A DNA stretch of 44,515 bases from Aquificaceae bacterium (GTDB taxonomy: Bacteria; Aquificota; Aquificia; Aquificales; Aquificaceae), in contig JBBFKQ010000011.1 of the NCBI GenBank assembly GCA_037481935.1, forward strand, positions 1 through 44,515, written 5' to 3'. Below the pieces are notes generated by a model that was not told the origin of the DNA, searched no databases, and saw nothing but the letters and a program-made list of their open reading frames with translations. The translations under genes were made by a program, and so were the position numbers. Below, one piece after another: positions 24,551 to 41,630 of this stretch. Positions within the stretch are counted from its first letter, which is position 1. Each line of letters opens with the position of its first letter.

Positions 24551-24646
24551 CGGGAGAGTGAGGGAATCGAACCCTCCAGGGACCCCTCGCAGGACCCCTC
24601 ACGGGATTTGAAGTCCCGGGACCGCACCAGCGCATCAAACTCTCCC
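24551..24646 (-). tRNA. selC: tRNA-Sec (TCA), selenocysteine tRNA
   Basis: This tRNA of about 96 nt reads UGA. The 8-bp acceptor stem GGGAGAGT/ACTCTCCC is the extended stem typical of bacterial tRNA-Sec. The anticodon arm CGGGACTTCAAATCCCG exposes TCA. A long variable arm (GGGGTCC pairing with GGGGTCCC across TGCGA) precedes the T-arm GAGGGTTCGATTCCCTC. The discriminator is G and CCA is not encoded. Its first base is the last base of the upstream lipoyl-protein stop codon. It lies in the formate dehydrogenase run and would decode the UGA in fdnG. Confidence 0.96.
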
Positions 24647-27540: not shown

Positions 27541-30500
27541 TTATGCTTTCACCTTTTCAACTTTGCAGAGGAAACCCTTAAACTCAGGCGTCTGGGAGTT
27601 GGGGTCCCAGACAAAAGGTGTTATCATGTTGGCAAGGGCACCTTTTACAACGCCCTCGTTACCCCAGTGTATGGGTATGCCCACCGTATAAACCTTTTTG
27701 CCGTTTATAAGGAGTGGCTTTATCCTCTTTGTGGGCAGGGCGTAGCCCTCTGCTGAGCCCCTCGCAGTGCTGACCCTTACCCTGTCCCCTTCCTTTATTC
27801 CAAGCTCCTTTGCGAGCTCCTCTGGTATCTCAACAAACATATTTGGCAACAGGGCTGATGTGCCGTATATGTGCTTTGTCCAGTAATGGAAGTGCTCCAC
27901 GACCCTGTAAGTAGTTGCCACATAGGGGAACTGGTCAGGCTTTCCAAGAAGGTCAAGGTCTGACTTGTATATCTTCACGACGGGGTTGTAGGGTGTCTTC
28001 GGATGAAGTATGTTTTCAACGGGTGATTCAAAGGGCTCGTAATGTTCGGGGAAGGGCCCATCAACAAGAGGTGCGCAGAAGAGCCTTCCCCTTCCTTCTG
28101 GTAGCATTATGAAGGGTCCATATTCTGGAGGCAGGTCTGGCTTTATATCCGGCACATCGTATCCTACCCACCTTCCTTCAGCCTCGTTCCACCATAGATA
28201 CTTCTTCTTGGCACTCCATGGCTTGCCTGAAGGGTCTGCAGAAGCTCTGTTGTAGAGTATCCTTCTGTTTGCCGGCCATGCGAAGCCGTAGCCGGGATAT
28301 ACACCAAGCCCCGAGGGGTCAGACAGGTCTGTAGACTTTGCCCTGTTTCCTGTCTGAGGGAATATACCAGAATACAGCCACATGCCACAGGCTGTGGTGC
28401 CATCATCCTTAAGGACTGCAAAGCCAGGAAGTCTCTCGCCCTTCTTTACAACCACATTGCCCTTATCGTCTGTAATGTCCTCAAGGGCATATCCGTTCAT
28501 CTCCCTGAGCACCTCTTCCGCAGTGGGATAGTAGGGGTTCTGGAAGTTCCAGGTGAGGTTAAGAATTGGGTCTGGGAACTTACCCCCTTCCTTCTGGTAG
28601 AGGTTTTTCAGCCTCATCCAGAGCTGACCGGCAATCCACAGCTCATCCTTTGCATCCCCGGGTGGTTCTGCCGCCTTGTATTTCCACTTTATAACCCTTC
28701 CACTGTTGGTAAAGGAACCCTCCTTCTCTGCAAAGAGGGCAGATGGCAGAAGAAAAACTTCTGTCTGAACCTTGGAGGGGTCGTCCACATACTTCCAGAA
28801 GCTTGCCATTTCTGTTTCAAAAACCTCAACAACCACCATCCACTTCAGCTTTGCAAGACCTTCCGCTATCTTCCTGACATTGGGGTTGCTGGCAAGTATG
28901 TTCATACCAACGGAGACAAAGCCCTCCATCTTGCCCCTGTACATCCTGTCAAGTATTTCATCCATTGATATAACCTTTTCCAGTTTTGGCAGGTAGTGGT
29001 AAGCAAACTCGTTCTCTGGTGTTGCCGCATTTCCGAACCATGCTTTCAGAAGGCTCACATAGAACTTTCCGTAGTTAGACCAGTAATTCATAGAAGTATC
29101 CACAGCTTTAGGAGTGCTTGCCTCAATATGGTCCTTGAGGGTCTGCTGGTCTGCCCTTGGAGGCCTGAGATAACCCGGCAGAAACCTTCCCTCTCCGGCA
29201 AGGTCTGTCATACCCTGAACGTTGGCGTGTCCCCTAAGGGCATTTATGGCACCCCCTGGAACGCCTATGTTCCCAAGAAGGAGCTGGAGTATTGCCATGG
29301 AACCTATCAGCTGAGTTCCCGTGGAGTGGTGTGTCCATCCAAGGGCATAGAGATGCGTCATAGCTTTGTCAGGAGCGGATGTTTCTGCCACAAGCTTTGC
29401 CACTTCAAGGAACTTGTCCTTGGGAATACCCGTCAATTTTTCTACAACCTCGGGCGTATACCTTGAGTAGAACTCCTTCATAAGCTGGAAGACGCATCTG
29501 GGATGCTCAAGGGTCATATCCTTCTTTGCCATTCCCTTCTCATCAAGCTCATAAGCCCAGAGAGACTGGTCATACTTTCTTTTCTCAGGGTCGTAGCCAG
29601 AGAAGAGTCCTGTCTGTGGGTCAAAGCCGTAGGTATCTTTGATAATGTAGGCGGCGTTTGTAAAGTGTTTTACATACTCTTCGTTGTATTTTTTGTTCTG
29701 AAGCACGTAGTTTATAAGACCACCCATAAAGGCTATGTCAGAACCCGGTCTAATCTGCAGGAATATGTCGGATACTGCCGCAGTTCTGTTGAACCTGGGG
29801 TCAACGCATATAATCTTCGTTCCTTTTTCTTGACGGGCTTTTATGGCCCACTTGAAGCCACATGGATGGTTTTCTGCAGGGTTTCCTCCCATAACCAGAA
29901 TAAGGTCTGCGTTCTTAATGTCATTCCATCCATTGGTCATCGCACCTCTTCCGAACCTTGGGGCCAAACTGGCCACCGTTGGTGCGTGTCATATTCGCGC
30001 CTGGGTTTCCCTTGCCACAAGTCCAAGGGCCACGCCCATCTTTACCCAGAGGTAGCCTTCTTCGTTGGCTATGGTGCTGCCCTCAACCCATGCTATGCTC
30101 TCACATCTGTTCACGAGCCTACCCTGTTCGTCCCTCTCTATAAAGGTTCTGTCCCTTGTATCCTTTATCAACTTTGCTATTCTATCAAGAGCCTCATCCC
30201 AGCTTATCTCCTTCCATTCCTTTGCACCGGCCGGCCTATAGAGGGGTTTTTTGAGCCTCTGGGGAGAGTTTATGAAGTCTTTGAGGGTTGCACCTTTGGG
30301 GCATAGAGTTCCTCTATTGACGGGATCATCAGGGTTGCCCTCCACATGTATGACTCTGGGCTTTACGTTCATTGCACCATCTGTTAGTGTGTAGACTATA
30401 ACTCCACAGGAAACAGAACAGTAGGGGCATATGCTCTTTACAGCCTTTGCGCTGGAAATCTTTAGGTCGCTCACCCTTGCCATTGCAGGCTTGAGGTCAA

Positions 30501-30576
30501 AGCCAAGGCCACCAGCAAGGGTAGCACCCGTTGATACACCTGCAATTTTAAGAAAACTTCGCCTCGTAAGCTCCAT
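27541..30576 (-). CDS. fdnG: Selenocysteine formate dehydrogenase alpha subunit (UGA readthrough at codon 196)
   Basis: This 1011-residue periplasmic catalytic subunit oxidises formate to CO2 at a Mo(or W)-bis-MGD centre. A twin-arginine signal (LTRRSFLKIAG) starts it. The [4Fe-4S] ligands are C50, C53, C57 and C92, followed by PKGAT. The frame meets TGA at 29991-29989 in the context Q-A-R-I-(TGA)-H-A-P-T-V-A-S-L-A-P, which is the selenocysteine site of E. coli FdnG, also residue 196. Reading continues in frame to 27541, ending with the MGD-binding C-terminal domain. A SECIS-like hairpin follows the TGA and tRNA-Sec lies 5 kb downstream. A good ribosome site (AGGAGGTG) precedes the ATG. Confidence 0.96.
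29951..29991 (-). promoter_or_regulatory. UGA(Sec) codon and bacterial SECIS element in fdnG
   Basis: On the minus strand the UGA (29991-29989) is followed after 14 nt by a perfect 5-bp hairpin GGCCA-GTT-TGGCC (29974-29962), with a G-U-U loop like that recognised by SelB in E. coli fdnG and fdhF. Further sequence to about 29951 can extend the lower stem. Confidence 0.8.
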
Positions 30577-34598: not shown

Positions 34599-35447
34599 AT
34601 GGACTTTTTGGGAAAAGACCAGTCACCCCTCAGCTTTGAAGAGTGGGACCAGCTTGAAAGTGCTGTGCTGGATGTGGCAAGGAAAACCCTGGTATGCAGA
34701 AGGTTTTTGCCAGTGGTGGGTCCCATAGGTGTGGGCCATCAGGTAATATCCTACGATGTTTACCTCGGGGTTGAACCTGGTGTATGCGAGGTCAGACCCG
34801 GTGAAGAAAGCGAAGTTTGTGAACCTGTAAGAACGGGCAGAAGAAAGCACATAACTCTTCCCACCATATTCAAGCCCTTTTCCATAACATGGAGAGACCT
34901 TGAATACTTCAGACAGTTCAACCTGCCCCTTGACACTTCTCAGGCATCTGCAGCAGCCTTTGCAACAGCTGTGGCAGAGGACACTCTCATAATCCATGGG
35001 AACCAGAAGCTGGAGATAGACGGCTTTCTCACAGTTGAAGGAAGGCAGAGCATGTCCATGAGCGACTGGGATGCCCTTGGAAACGCCTTCAACGATGTAT
35101 CTCTGGGAGTTTCAAAGCTTTCAGAGAAGGGCTTTTATGGACCCTACTACCTTCTCCTCAATCCAAGAGACTACTTTAAGTTAAACAGAGTTTACCACAA
35201 CACAGGGCTGCTTGAGCTTGAACAGATAAAGAAACTTGTGGCGGACGTCTATCATACACCCATAATGCCGGAGGGTAAAGCCCTGCTTATATCGGCAGGA
35301 CCGCAGAATATGGACCTGGTTGTGGGACTGGACTTTAGCCTTGCCTACGTGGAATCCACAAACATGGTTCATCACTTCAGAGTGATGGAAATAGTGGCAC
35401 CACGCATAAAGAGACCAGGAGCCATAATGGTCATAGGAGAAAAGTGA
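34599..35447 (+). CDS. Encapsulin nanocompartment shell protein (family 1)
   Basis: This 282-residue HK97-fold shell protein self-assembles into an icosahedral protein compartment in the cytoplasm. It aligns with Thermotoga maritima encapsulin from the first residues (MDFLGKDQSPLSFEEWDQLE) through GRRKHITLPTIFKPFSITWR (spine helix and E-loop region), DTLIIHGNQ, KGFYGPYYLLLNPRDYFKL and the C-terminal VVGLDFSLAYVESTNMVHHF. Three cysteines (C33, C63, C72) could add disulfide stability. A strong AGGAGGTG ribosome site suggests high expression. Usual cargo (ferritin-like protein, peroxidase, hemerythrin) is absent nearby and no cargo-loading peptide was found. The next gene, a VWA protein, overlaps it by 4 bp. 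Confidence 0.88.
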   Translation: MDFLGKDQSPLSFEEWDQLESAVLDVARKTLVCRRFLPVVGPIGVGHQVISYDVYLGVEPGVCEVRPGEESEVCEPVRTGRRKHITLPTIFKPFSITWRDLEYFRQFNLPLDTSQASAAAFATAVAEDTLIIHGNQKLEIDGFLTVEGRQSMSMSDWDALGNAFNDVSLGVSKLSEKGFYGPYYLLLNPRDYFKLNRVYHNTGLLELEQIKKLVADVYHTPIMPEGKALLISAGPQNMDLVVGLDFSLAYVESTNMVHHFRVMEIVAPRIKRPGAIMVIGEK

Positions 35448-37890: not shown

Positions 37891-38907
37891 ATGGATAGGG
37901 TGGAAAGTTTTCTTTTTGAAGTAGCAGAGAAAGCAGCTGCATATGAACCCATAGATAGGGGAACTGCCCTAAAACTTCTCAACATTCCCGATGAATACAT
38001 AGCGTTGATGGTTTACCTGGCGCAGAAAGTGAAAAATAAGTTTCACAGCCCAGACAGGATAGAATTCTGTTCTATAATAAACGCCAAGAGCGGCGCCTGT
38101 TCAGAAGATTGTAAATTCTGCGCCCAGTCAAAGTTCTACAGAACCCCTATAAACATATACAACCTTGTCCCAAAAGAAGAAATACTGGAAGGTGCATACA
38201 GAGGAGTGGAGTTTGGTGCAAACAGATACTGCGTGGTTCTTAGCGGAAGGTCGGCAACAAAAGAAGAAGTAGAAAAGATATGTGAGGGTGTGAGAGAAAT
38301 AAAGAAGGAGGGACTTCCCATAAAGGTGTGCGTTTCTGCAGGAACTCTGGATGAAGAATCCCTCAAAAGACTGAAAGAAGCCGGAGTAAAACGCGTAAAC
38401 CATAACCTTGAAGCATCTGAAGGGTTCTTCCCACGCATAGTGACTACACACACATGGAAGGAGCGTTATGAAACCATAAAAAGGATAAAGTCCCTTGGTC
38501 TTTCCACATGCTGTGGTGGCATATTTGGCATGGGGGAGAGTGATGAGGATAGAGTTGACCTTGCACTCACCTACAGGGAGCTGGAGGTGGACTCCATACC
38601 TCTGAACTTCCTAATGCCCATAGAGGGAACACCACTCCAGAACGCTCCCGGGGTAACGCCCATAGAAGCTCTGAAAATAATAGCCATGTTCAGGTTTACT
38701 AACCCAAAGGCTGAGCTCAGGCTTTGTGGAGGAAGGGAGCAAAACCTGAGAGACTTTCATGGCATGGCGGTTTTGATGACAAACGCCATGATGGTTGGTG
38801 GTTATCTAACCAGAGCAGGAAGAGACATTAAAAAGGACTATCAGCTTCTGAAAGACCTGAGATATGAAAGGCTTATAAGCACAGAAGAAATTTCACAGGG
38901 GGTGTGA
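37891..38907 (+). CDS. bioB: Biotin synthase BioB
   Basis: This 338-residue radical-SAM enzyme inserts sulfur into dethiobiotin. The SAM-cluster cysteines are C70, C74 and C77 in GACSEDCKFCAQSKF, and the later SAGTLDEESLKRLKEAGV, NHNLEAS and FGMGESDEDRVDLALTYREL are typical of BioB. A ribosome site AAGGAGG precedes the ATG. The stop codon lies inside the first palindrome of the repeat region that follows. No other biotin genes are in view. Confidence 0.96.
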   Translation: MDRVESFLFEVAEKAAAYEPIDRGTALKLLNIPDEYIALMVYLAQKVKNKFHSPDRIEFCSIINAKSGACSEDCKFCAQSKFYRTPINIYNLVPKEEILEGAYRGVEFGANRYCVVLSGRSATKEEVEKICEGVREIKKEGLPIKVCVSAGTLDEESLKRLKEAGVKRVNHNLEASEGFFPRIVTTHTWKERYETIKRIKSLGLSTCCGGIFGMGESDEDRVDLALTYRELEVDSIPLNFLMPIEGTPLQNAPGVTPIEALKIIAMFRFTNPKAELRLCGGREQNLRDFHGMAVLMTNAMMVGGYLTRAGRDIKKDYQLLKDLRYERLISTEEISQGV

Positions 38908-38931
38908 AAATTTCACACCCTATATTTTTCT
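38900..38931 (+). terminator. 21-bp perfect palindrome at the bioB stop, terminator-like
   Basis: GGGTGTGAAA and TTTCACACCC face each other around a single A (38900-38920) and are followed by a T-rich tract from 38921. As RNA it would terminate bioB transcription. As DNA it is two head-to-head copies of the repeat motif found throughout the region. The bioB TGA (38905-38907) lies within it. Confidence 0.55.
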
Positions 38932-38990
38932 TCTTTATTTATTTTTTTATTAATAGTAATAATAATAGACCCCCTCAAATTTCACACCCC
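38921..38990 (-). other. Possible origin-unwinding module (box, GC block, DnaA-trio-like tract, AT-rich)
   Basis: Read on the minus strand: a repeat box GGGGTGTGAAATTT (38990-38977), a G-rich block GAGGGGGT (38976-38969), six trinucleotides CTA TTA TTA TTA CTA TTA (38968-38951), then 30 bp of almost pure A/T (38950-38921). This order matches the bacterial origin unwinding system described in Bacillus subtilis, in which a DnaA box and GC cluster lead into DnaA-trios. The box itself is not the standard TTATCCACA, sharing mainly its T-CACA part. Confidence 0.35.
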
Positions 38991-39137
38991 TTTCTGAAAT
39001 CCTTGAAAATCAAGCACTTCCGAAAAGGGAATTTCACACCCCCTTTCAAATCCTTGATTTTCCTTGATTTTCTATGTTAACGAAATCGTTGAGTATCAAT
39101 GCTTCTAAGAGAATTTCACAATTTCACACCCCCTTGA

Positions 39138-39428
39138 CCTAAGTGTGGGCTTTTCCGTCATTTTATTAATTTTCCGCGCTTTAAAAAAGTCTGTAAAAAG
39201 GTATACTTAGGAACAGGGCGTGAAATTCCGTCTATGGGTGTGAAATTCTCCCCTATATGGTGTGTAAAACCTGTGAAATTCCTTTTTGGAAAGCATGGAA
39301 AAACCCAAACTTAGGAATATGATATTTATCAGATGTGAAATTCTGCCCCTGGGTGTGAAATTCCCTGTGAAATTCGGGTTTTTAAAATTATGGAAAAACC
39401 CATATTTACAAACAGGGTGTGAAATTCT
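39138..39428. repeat. Second repeat family GGAAAAACCCA..ACTTAGG in the same region
   Basis: ATGGAAAAACCCAAACTTAGG occurs in parts at 39295-39317 and 39390-39413, and in inverted form at 39138-39161. The sequence ACTTAGGAACAGGG at 39206-39218 and its degenerate copy 200 bp later (39406-39418) each run directly into a TGTGAAATTC box. The region thus holds composite units, not only the short motif. Confidence 0.55.
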
Positions 39429-39430
39429 TT

Positions 39431-39446
39431 TATGATTTAAATCATA
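39431..39446. repeat. 16-bp perfect palindrome at the comM stop codon
   Basis: TATGATTTAAATCATA is its own reverse complement and contains the comM stop (39444-39442). It closes the repeat region on the right as the 21-bp palindrome does on the left. Confidence 0.6.
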
Positions 39447-40968
39447 TTATCGGTGACCTTTCCTTCATCCTGAACTGAAGGGCTTCTGCAAGGTGATGGC
39501 TGGCGATTTTCTCTTCTCCTTCGAGGTCTGCTATGGTTCTTGCCACCTTGAGTGTTTTCATATAGCCTCTGCCGGTGAGATTGAGCCTTTCCACTGCACC
39601 TTTTAGAAGGGATTGGGCTTCCTGAGTCATTATGCAGTGTTTTTTCACCTCTTGGTTTGTCATGCGTGAGTTGTATTTTGTTTTACTGTCTTTAAACCTC
39701 TCTCTCTGTATTTCAATGGCTTTTATGACCCTTTCCCTTATCTGTGCAGAACTTTCTTCAGAGCTCATTTTAAGTAAATCTTCTCTCTCTACTGGGTTTA
39801 TCCATACTTTGAGGTCTATCCTATCTATTATGGGACCTGATATTCTTGACTGGTAAGCCTTTAACTGCACTGGCGAGCACACACAGGCCTTATATGGGTT
39901 TCCATAGTTTCCACATGGGCATGGGTTCATGGCCACTACCAGCAAAAACTCAGCCGGGAATGTTATTCTGCCGCCCACTCTTGACACAGTTACTCTTCCA
40001 TCTTCAAGAGGTTGCCTGAGAGCTTCTATTGCCTTTCTGCTGAATTCTGGAAACTCATCAAGAAAAAGAACTCCCCTGTGGGCAAGAGAAATCTCTCCAG
40101 GCTGTGGCACTGTGCCACCACCAACAAGGGCTGAGTCGGATGCGTTTGTCAGGGGGTTTCTGAAGGGTCTCTTTGTGATAAGAGGTTTATCCTCATCAAG
40201 AAGACCGGCCACGCTGTATATGTGGGTTATCTCTACAGCTTCTTCAAAGGTCAGAGGCGGCATTATGGTTATTAGTCTCTTTGCCAGCATACTCTTTCCA
40301 GCTCCTGGGGGACCAACAAGAGCGACTGGGTGAAAACCCGCCGCGGCGATTTCCATGGCTCTCTTTGCCTGGTGCTGTCCGTATACTTCGCTAAAGTCTA
40401 CCTCAAAGACTTCTCCAGAATTGAAGAGCTCTTCCACATCCACCTTTACAGGCTCTGCATCCATATTGCCCGTAAGAAAATCTACAACCTCTTTCAGGCT
40501 TCCAAATCCATATGCTTCTACCCCTTCCACAAGACCCGCTTCCCTCGCATTACCGGAGGGAACTATAAAGCGTCTGTAGCCAAGATTCCTGAGAGATAGC
40601 ACTATGGGTAGGGCCCCCTTAACGGGATTTATCTTCCCATCAAGAGAGAGCTCACCGAAAATCACCCAGTCTTCAGGGAAATCTATGCCAGTGGAAAGTT
40701 TTAATATACCAAGAGCTATGGGCAGGTCATAAAGAGTTCCCTGTTTTTTAAGATGCGATGGAGAGAGATTTACCGTTATCCTTTTTACGGGAAGTTGAAA
40801 TCCGGTGTTTTTGAGTGCGGACCTGACCCTGTCTCTTGCCTCATTTATCGCTTTGTCAGCAAGACCAACTATGGAAAACTGAGGCAGTCCATTTGATATG
40901 TCTACCTCCACGTCCACCTCATAGCCGTCTATTCCCAGAACTCCTCCACTTTTTATCCTGCAAAACAT
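39442..40968 (-). CDS. comM: YifB/ComM-family Mg-chelatase-like AAA+ ATPase
   Basis: This 508-residue protein has an N-terminal Lon-S5-like domain (GLPQFSIVGLADKAINEARD, NLSPSHLKKQGTLYDLPIAL). The AAA+ core has Walker A VGPPGAGKSMLAKR, Walker B GVLFLDEFPEFSRKAIEALR and the MNPCPCGNYG motif. The C-terminal Mg-chelatase region is ARTIADLEGEEKIASHHLAE. ComM is a hexameric helicase driving branch migration in natural transformation. TATAAT lies 9 nt before the ATG without a ribosome site. It is convergent with bioB across the repeat region. Confidence 0.93.
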   Translation of the reverse strand: MFCRIKSGGVLGIDGYEVDVEVDISNGLPQFSIVGLADKAINEARDRVRSALKNTGFQLPVKRITVNLSPSHLKKQGTLYDLPIALGILKLSTGIDFPEDWVIFGELSLDGKINPVKGALPIVLSLRNLGYRRFIVPSGNAREAGLVEGVEAYGFGSLKEVVDFLTGNMDAEPVKVDVEELFNSGEVFEVDFSEVYGQHQAKRAMEIAAAGFHPVALVGPPGAGKSMLAKRLITIMPPLTFEEAVEITHIYSVAGLLDEDKPLITKRPFRNPLTNASDSALVGGGTVPQPGEISLAHRGVLFLDEFPEFSRKAIEALRQPLEDGRVTVSRVGGRITFPAEFLLVVAMNPCPCGNYGNPYKACVCSPVQLKAYQSRISGPIIDRIDLKVWINPVEREDLLKMSSEESSAQIRERVIKAIEIQRERFKDSKTKYNSRMTNQEVKKHCIMTQEAQSLLKGAVERLNLTGRGYMKTLKVARTIADLEGEEKIASHHLAEALQFRMKERSPII

Positions 40969-41012: not shown

Positions 41013-41630
41013 TTAACCTTCTATCTCCTCCTCAAGTAAATTTTGCAGGTTTATTTTTATATCCTCTATTATCTCAACCTCTTCATCCCAGCCTGTAATG
41101 AACCATTTTTTGCCCTCTTCTGCTATCATTACCTTTTTATCAAAGGTGGTATACCATATGACCTTTTTTACACCTGCGTCCAGCAGTTCCTGAGTTTTTT
41201 CCCTGCAGTAGTTCATGAAGTCTCCATACTTTGTCAGGTCAGCCTTTGTGTCTATTTCTATAACTACCTCTGGGGCAACTGCGGTGTATCTGTGGTCTAT
41301 GCCTTCTCTGAGGAGCTTTTCCTTTTCAAAGATGGCTATGTCAAGATTACGCCAGCTTCCTTTTGTGGTTTTAAAGCCAGCTTCATTGGTTGCTATAATA
41401 TACCTATTCCTGTCGAGTTTTTGCACTAAATACGAATAGATCAGGTAAAGGATGAACCACTGAATCTTACTGCTTCCCATAACCTCCTCCGGAGTTTTTT
41501 CCCCAGACAGAACTTTCTGATAATCGCGGTAGTATATGGGCTTGCCCCTTTTCATTTCGTATATCAAGACCTCTGGGACTCTTCGCTTCTCCGATTTCTT
41601 GATTACTCTTTTTCCACCTTTTACTGCCAT
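41013..41630 (-). CDS. Uma2-family (DUF820) putative restriction endonuclease-like protein
   Basis: This 205-residue protein has a PD-(D/E)xK-like core: RNLDIAIFEKEKLLREG gives the Asp, and PEVVIEIDTKADL the acidic pair with the downstream lysine, as in Uma2 proteins common in cyanobacteria and thermophiles. Then KTQELLDAGVKKVIWYTTFD matches the usual continuation. The N-terminus is very basic (GGKRVIKKSEKRR), unlike most relatives. Biological role is unknown. It starts 28 bp after mqnC ends. Confidence 0.75.
   Translation of the reverse strand: MAVKGGKRVIKKSEKRRVPEVLIYEMKRGKPIYYRDYQKVLSGEKTPEEVMGSSKIQWFILYLIYSYLVQKLDRNRYIIATNEAGFKTTKGSWRNLDIAIFEKEKLLREGIDHRYTAVAPEVVIEIDTKADLTKYGDFMNYCREKTQELLDAGVKKVIWYTTFDKKVMIAEEGKKWFITGWDEEVEIIEDIKINLQNLLEEEIEG

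Follow-up and report, generated by a model that had tools for sequence, protein, structure and literature searches.

A candidate chromosomal replication origin with a proposed DnaA box type of its own in a genus of Aquificaceae

A 540-bp array of short repeats between the convergent genes bioB and comM, located in a 44,515-bp stretch of Aquificaceae DNA (hereafter the window), is very probably the chromosomal replication origin (oriC) of a genus of this family, as judged from comparative sequence analysis. The assignment builds on an array that is both unique and conserved, on its layout of DnaA-trios, spacer and box, on a weak duplex and on a position opposite dif/xer. The kind of origin is known, while its box, AATTTCACACCC and not TTATCCACA, as well as the recognition helix of its DnaA and the box polarity are unusual.

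The region at 38888-39427 holds 13 exact copies of TTTCACA/TGTGAAA and one variant, GGGCGTGAAATT (39216-39227), in line with the roughly fourteen copies in two arrays reported in the initial annotation; dinucleotide shuffling of this stretch (2000 rounds) left 0.2 copies of TTTCACA on average and at most 4. Only seven copies, four in the left and three in the right array, carry the full 12-mer AATTTCACACCC, the others keeping AATTTCACA alone. All seven 12-mers present in the whole 1.69-Mb genome lie inside the array (reversed control: 0). Left copies point right and right copies point left, so the two arrays face each other overall as described earlier, with the exception of the left copy at 38903-38909, which points the opposite way. 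Perfect palindromes had been reported at both borders; the one over the comM stop codon, TATGATTTAAATCATA, is indeed perfect, while over the bioB stop codon this is true only of the two 7-bp arms around a ggggg centre (TTTCACA-ggggg-TGTGAAA). The earlier description did not include the DnaA-trios at 38954-38968, nor did it mention two more motifs that are repeated between the boxes. The following features were assigned to the locus:

38889-38920, three boxes at the left border, overlapping the bioB stop codon: AATTTCACA (+, 38889), TGTGAAA (-, 38903-38909) and AATTTCACACCC (+, 38909-38920)
38920-38969, no strand, candidate AT-rich DNA unwinding element (nearest-neighbour energies)
38954-38968, + strand, DnaA-trio tract TAG-TAA-TAA-TAA-TAG (motif definition: PMC8287927, PMC10316083)
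38969-38977, + strand, C-rich spacer ACCCCCTCA between the trios and the first box
38978-38989, + strand, DnaA-box-like AATTTCACACCC adjoining the trios
39002-39014, no strand, accessory motif C CTTGAAAATCAAG, from varied repeats between the left boxes
39030-39041, + strand, box AATTTCACACCC
39112-39131, + strand, two overlapping boxes AATTTCACA-ATTTCACACCC
39132-39215, no strand, core separating the opposed arrays, with motif B once per direction (39138-39157; partial, 39200-39215)
39216-39227, - strand, variant box GGGCGTGAAATT
39236-39247, - strand, box GGGTGTGAAATT
39272-39280, - strand, short box TGTGAAATT
39297-39319, - strand, accessory motif B GGAAAAACCCAAACTTAGGAATA; a related copy (39392-39414) immediately adjoins the last box
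39334-39342, - strand, short box TGTGAAATT
39351-39374, - strand, boxes GGGTGTGAAATT (39351-39362) and TGTGAAATT (39366-39374)
39415-39426, - strand, outermost right box GGGTGTGAAATT
39431-39446, no strand, TATGATTTAAATCATA, a perfect palindrome spanning the comM stop codon, beside the outermost box in most relatives

Across the relatives, motifs B (GGAAAAACCCATACTTAG-like) and C (CTTGANAATCAAG) and the border palindrome are found again between the boxes or next to them. The palindrome itself, found in most of the genus and in a looser form in a genome of a different genus (G019), resembles ATGAT-N4-ATCAT sites, with 12 strand-wise matches in the complete genome G013.

The flanking genes bioB (37891-38907, + strand) and comM/yifB (39442-40968, - strand), whose family identities are backed by profile matches, both end at the region, and the neighbouring genes run towards it, on the + strand from 30.7 to 38.9 kb and on the - strand from 39.4 to 44.5 kb; the gene coordinates thus agree with what had been noted before. 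An array touching both stop codons might be taken for regulatory sites or a transcription terminator of bioB or comM. There is no promoter at hand, because both genes end here, and the opposed array of G019 sits between unrelated genes, so we give this explanation next to no credence.

Elsewhere in the window, the gene for the formate dehydrogenase-N alpha subunit (27541-30576, - strand) encodes a selenoprotein; a single in-frame TGA (U196) joins two open reading frames, and a tRNA-Sec gene (24551-24646, - strand) lies 3 kb from it. A gene for a family 1 encapsulin shell protein (34599-35447) shares an operon-like arrangement with genes for a VWA-domain protein and a geranylgeranyl-reductase-like protein, and the product of 41013-41630 (- strand), adjoining comM, gave a weak match to Uma2-type putative nucleases below the curated cut-off.

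At the left edge of the array, an AT-rich stretch is followed from left to right by TAG-TAA-TAA-TAA-TAG, ACCCCCTCA and AATTTCACACCCC. Nearest-neighbour energies identify 38920-38969 as the least stable 50-bp duplex of the 44.5-kb window (rank 0 of 44465). Published origin-unwinding modules combine a DnaA box with a minimum of three DnaA-trios, the two being separated by a GC-rich spacer of up to 16 bp (PMC8287927; PMC7561715). The left edge offers a box, five trios and the 9-bp spacer ACCCCCTCA, where this basal unwinding system calls for a box, a spacer no longer than 16 bp and three or more trios of the form 3'-NAN-5'. Trios, C/G-rich spacer and box were found in all 10 genomes with an intact edge, with identical spacing in nine and a spacing one base shorter in G004. 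Exact matches to the module occur in eight genomes and are confined there to the array. T-rich triplets (CTT/TTC runs) at the left side of the unwinding element form a counterpart to the TAG/TAA trios at its right side, each beside a box (38909-38969 and in relatives), and the two together possibly form a two-sided opening module.

A search of related genomes for the array between bioB and comM, as proposed in the initial annotation, recovered a single motif cluster per genome in 11 of the 14 species of the genus, with bioB and comM kept as flanks in nearly all members; the three species without a cluster are represented by fragmented or incomplete assemblies, and in G009 the array is interrupted by contig ends. 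G006, G011, G012 and G002 retain the trio-spacer-box module despite rearrangement of their outer boxes. G019 carries a looser opposed array between unrelated genes, beside a 319-aa open reading frame in place of bioB/comM; apart from this array, ATTTCACACCCC occurs in other genera as scattered copies only. A phylum-wide search for TAATAATA-N-TTTCACA was discarded, as matches outside the genus look like chance, with one possible case in G044 (TAATAATAGGGCGCCCCTTTTCACA).

When about 95 % of G013 was scanned without bias for 9-mers that cluster, five clusters emerged: the array described here, a coding repeat and three CRISPR-like arrays. No other intergenic non-CRISPR cluster and no dense cluster of the canonical TTATCCACA was detected in this part of the genome. 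The canonical DnaA box TTATNCACA is missing from the G013 array, where AATTTCACA shares only T-N-CACA with it.

These data also bear on readings in which the array is a protein-bound locus of another type. Iteron-like direct repeats next to an AT-rich region would suit an origin brought in by an integrated plasmid or phage; the probability of this appears vanishingly small, given one array per genome, a bioB-comM location that is constant in nearly all genus members and no recognised rep, integrase or mobile genes next to the array. Partition sites are often situated near origins, and repeated sites forming one cluster per chromosome could equally describe a centromere-like, parS-type array bound by ParB. 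Unlike the palindromic parS, the motif lacks symmetry, canonical parS (TGTTTCACGTGAAACA) was not found in about 95 % of G013, and the trio-spacer-box module would be left unexplained, which makes a partition site highly unlikely. We consider it very improbable that the array serves as a reservoir or timing site resembling datA or DARS, bound by DnaA without being an origin. A dense box cluster distant from dnaA is what such a site would look like; against it stand the complete unwinding module, the position opposite dif, and the lack of a second candidate origin in about 95 % of G013.

The position of the terminus was approached through the Xer/dif system. A putative dif palindrome of 28 bp, TGTTAAYATAA-N6-TTATRTTAACA, with two 11-bp inverted arms around 6 bp, was detected in 43 of 64 Aquificaceae genomes, usually as a single copy, while reversed controls gave none. 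All four genomes tested carry a tyrosine recombinase gene at 1-1.5 kb from the palindrome, as expected for an Xer/dif pair, and in G000 and G006 it is the sole such gene. The palindrome beside this Xer-type recombinase gene is therefore likely the dif site of the family, placed at G013:C1:530197, G007:C1:285001, G006:C1:1099436 and G000:C10:40273. An earlier guess at position 283634 of G007 looked coding and was not conserved, and it was replaced by the palindrome at 285001. For the genus, the distance between array and dif was measured on its three complete chromosomes and amounts to 0.472, 0.495 and 0.486 of the circle (combined Fisher P 0.0011); the window's own genome consists of 26 contigs. 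With the array about half a circle from dif, the terminus would lie opposite the array. This evidence is independent of the motifs and strongly disfavours placing the terminus at the array.

A terminus or fork trap, in which two opposed clusters of terminator-protein sites stop forks arriving from either side, had been preferred in the initial annotation on account of the converging genes, although a replication origin was listed first among its options. Opposed repeats and convergent flanking genes do fit a fork trap, yet dif and xer occupy the opposite pole in three complete chromosomes, the locus carries a DnaA-trio module together with the weakest duplex of the window, and raw GC skew, where it gives any signal, shows a minimum as at origins (G013). 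Thus, the origin listed first is the option that stands, and a terminus at this site is very improbable.

The cumulative GC-skew test proposed earlier gave a mixed outcome. The raw curve of G013 reaches its lowest point at the array and that of G006, as far as sampled, close by; G007 shows no such minimum. Raw skew follows gene direction, and after correction for gene strand (third-codon and fourfold sites) no signal was left at the array or along the array-dif axis. GC skew cannot decide between origin and terminus here. Strand skew near zero is described for Aquifex aeolicus (PMC2099444), as is a gene-strand bias that is not significant in A. aeolicus and several relatives (PMC4070872). Because skew and gene-strand bias are near absent in Aquifex and relatives, converging genes are no argument against an origin.

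As candidate binder of the boxes we turn to DnaA. Nearly all of the relatives searched have a single dnaA gene, which lies apart from the array, at a distance of 36 kb, 363 kb and 857 kb in three genomes. The recognition helix of the protein is DHTSA both in the genome that the window comes from and in eight relatives, DHTTV in A. aeolicus and E. coli, and DHTT with V or I next in the sister family; DHTSA is missing in some genus members, with G011 carrying DHTIA. A changed DnaA helix together with a changed box would be the expected pairing, for which the Thermotoga helix provides a precedent. Judging from helix and box sequences, DnaA probably is the protein that binds the array. The DnaA of A. 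aeolicus (PDB 1L8Q, 2HCB, 3R8F) comes from the same bacterial family and is the closest solved structure to the DnaA of the genus, from which it differs in its canonical DHTTV helix. Thermotoga maritima is likewise a thermophile with a divergent DnaA recognition helix and a divergent DnaA box; its oriC differs from the array in box sequence and in having fewer boxes, with five in the minimal origin.

The overall architecture resembles E. coli oriC in being one intergenic region with an unwinding element at one end and opposed left and right DnaA-box arrays (PMC8235120, PMC10316083). It differs in the box, TTATCCACA in E. coli versus AATTTCACACCC here, in having many full-consensus boxes instead of few, and in boxes that face inward instead of outward. 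When aligned by CACA, R1 of E. coli reads TGTGGATAA on the strand of the unwinding element versus AATTTCACA here, and the polarity is thus opposite. With the basal unwinding systems of Bacillus subtilis and Helicobacter pylori the locus shares DnaA-trios, a GC-rich spacer, a box and an AT-rich region. The trio tract resembles that of B. subtilis, and the TTCAC part of the H. pylori boxes (TYATTCACN) recurs in the array box. Unlike these systems, the origin proposed here is not split by dnaA, which lies far away, and the polarity of the box towards the trios appears reversed. Reversing the trio-side boxes abolished origin activity in B. subtilis (PMC6669920), while DnaA oligomers of T. maritima form whatever the box direction (PMC10316083). 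Either the protein arrangement differs in the Aquificaceae genus, or the box alignment based on CACA is wrong. One tentative possibility, which we regard as somewhat doubtful, is that DnaA with a DHTSA helix binds the AATTTCACACCC boxes of reversed polarity in an inside-out orisome, whose AAA+ domains swivel or whose oligomer runs the other way to reach the trios, while motifs B and C may bind a further initiation factor.

Among the hallmarks of an oriC, the array shows a unique intergenic box cluster, an easily opened AT-rich element and a position opposite dif, and it lacks the canonical box TTATNCACA. A non-canonical box is no bar to an oriC, as the divergent boxes of H. pylori and T. maritima show. 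Counting against an oriC are adjoining genes oriented head-on to the proposed forks, the lack of a skew signal on the array-dif axis, a box with only the CACA end of the canonical one, the reversed polarity and the distant dnaA.

We infer binding of the array by DnaA, opening of the duplex at the trios and a start of replication at this locus. On both arrays, whose AATTTCACACCC boxes face inward, DnaA would bind and stack into an oligomer; from the trio-proximal box (38978), this oligomer would reach past the C-rich spacer to a single strand of the trios (38954-38968). The weak duplex at 38920-38969 would then open and helicases would load for two forks, which would meet near dif/xer, half a chromosome away.

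Aquifex DnaA serves as a main structural model for bacterial origin opening, and we found no matching Aquificaceae origin or motif described in the open literature, although a DoriC prediction may exist. The genomes of this family are without the skew normally used for finding origins. What is gained is a precise, testable oriC candidate with a box of its own, together with a family-wide candidate dif site. Natural covariation of DnaA recognition helix and box would come with it, as would a way of probing the role of box polarity in strand opening.
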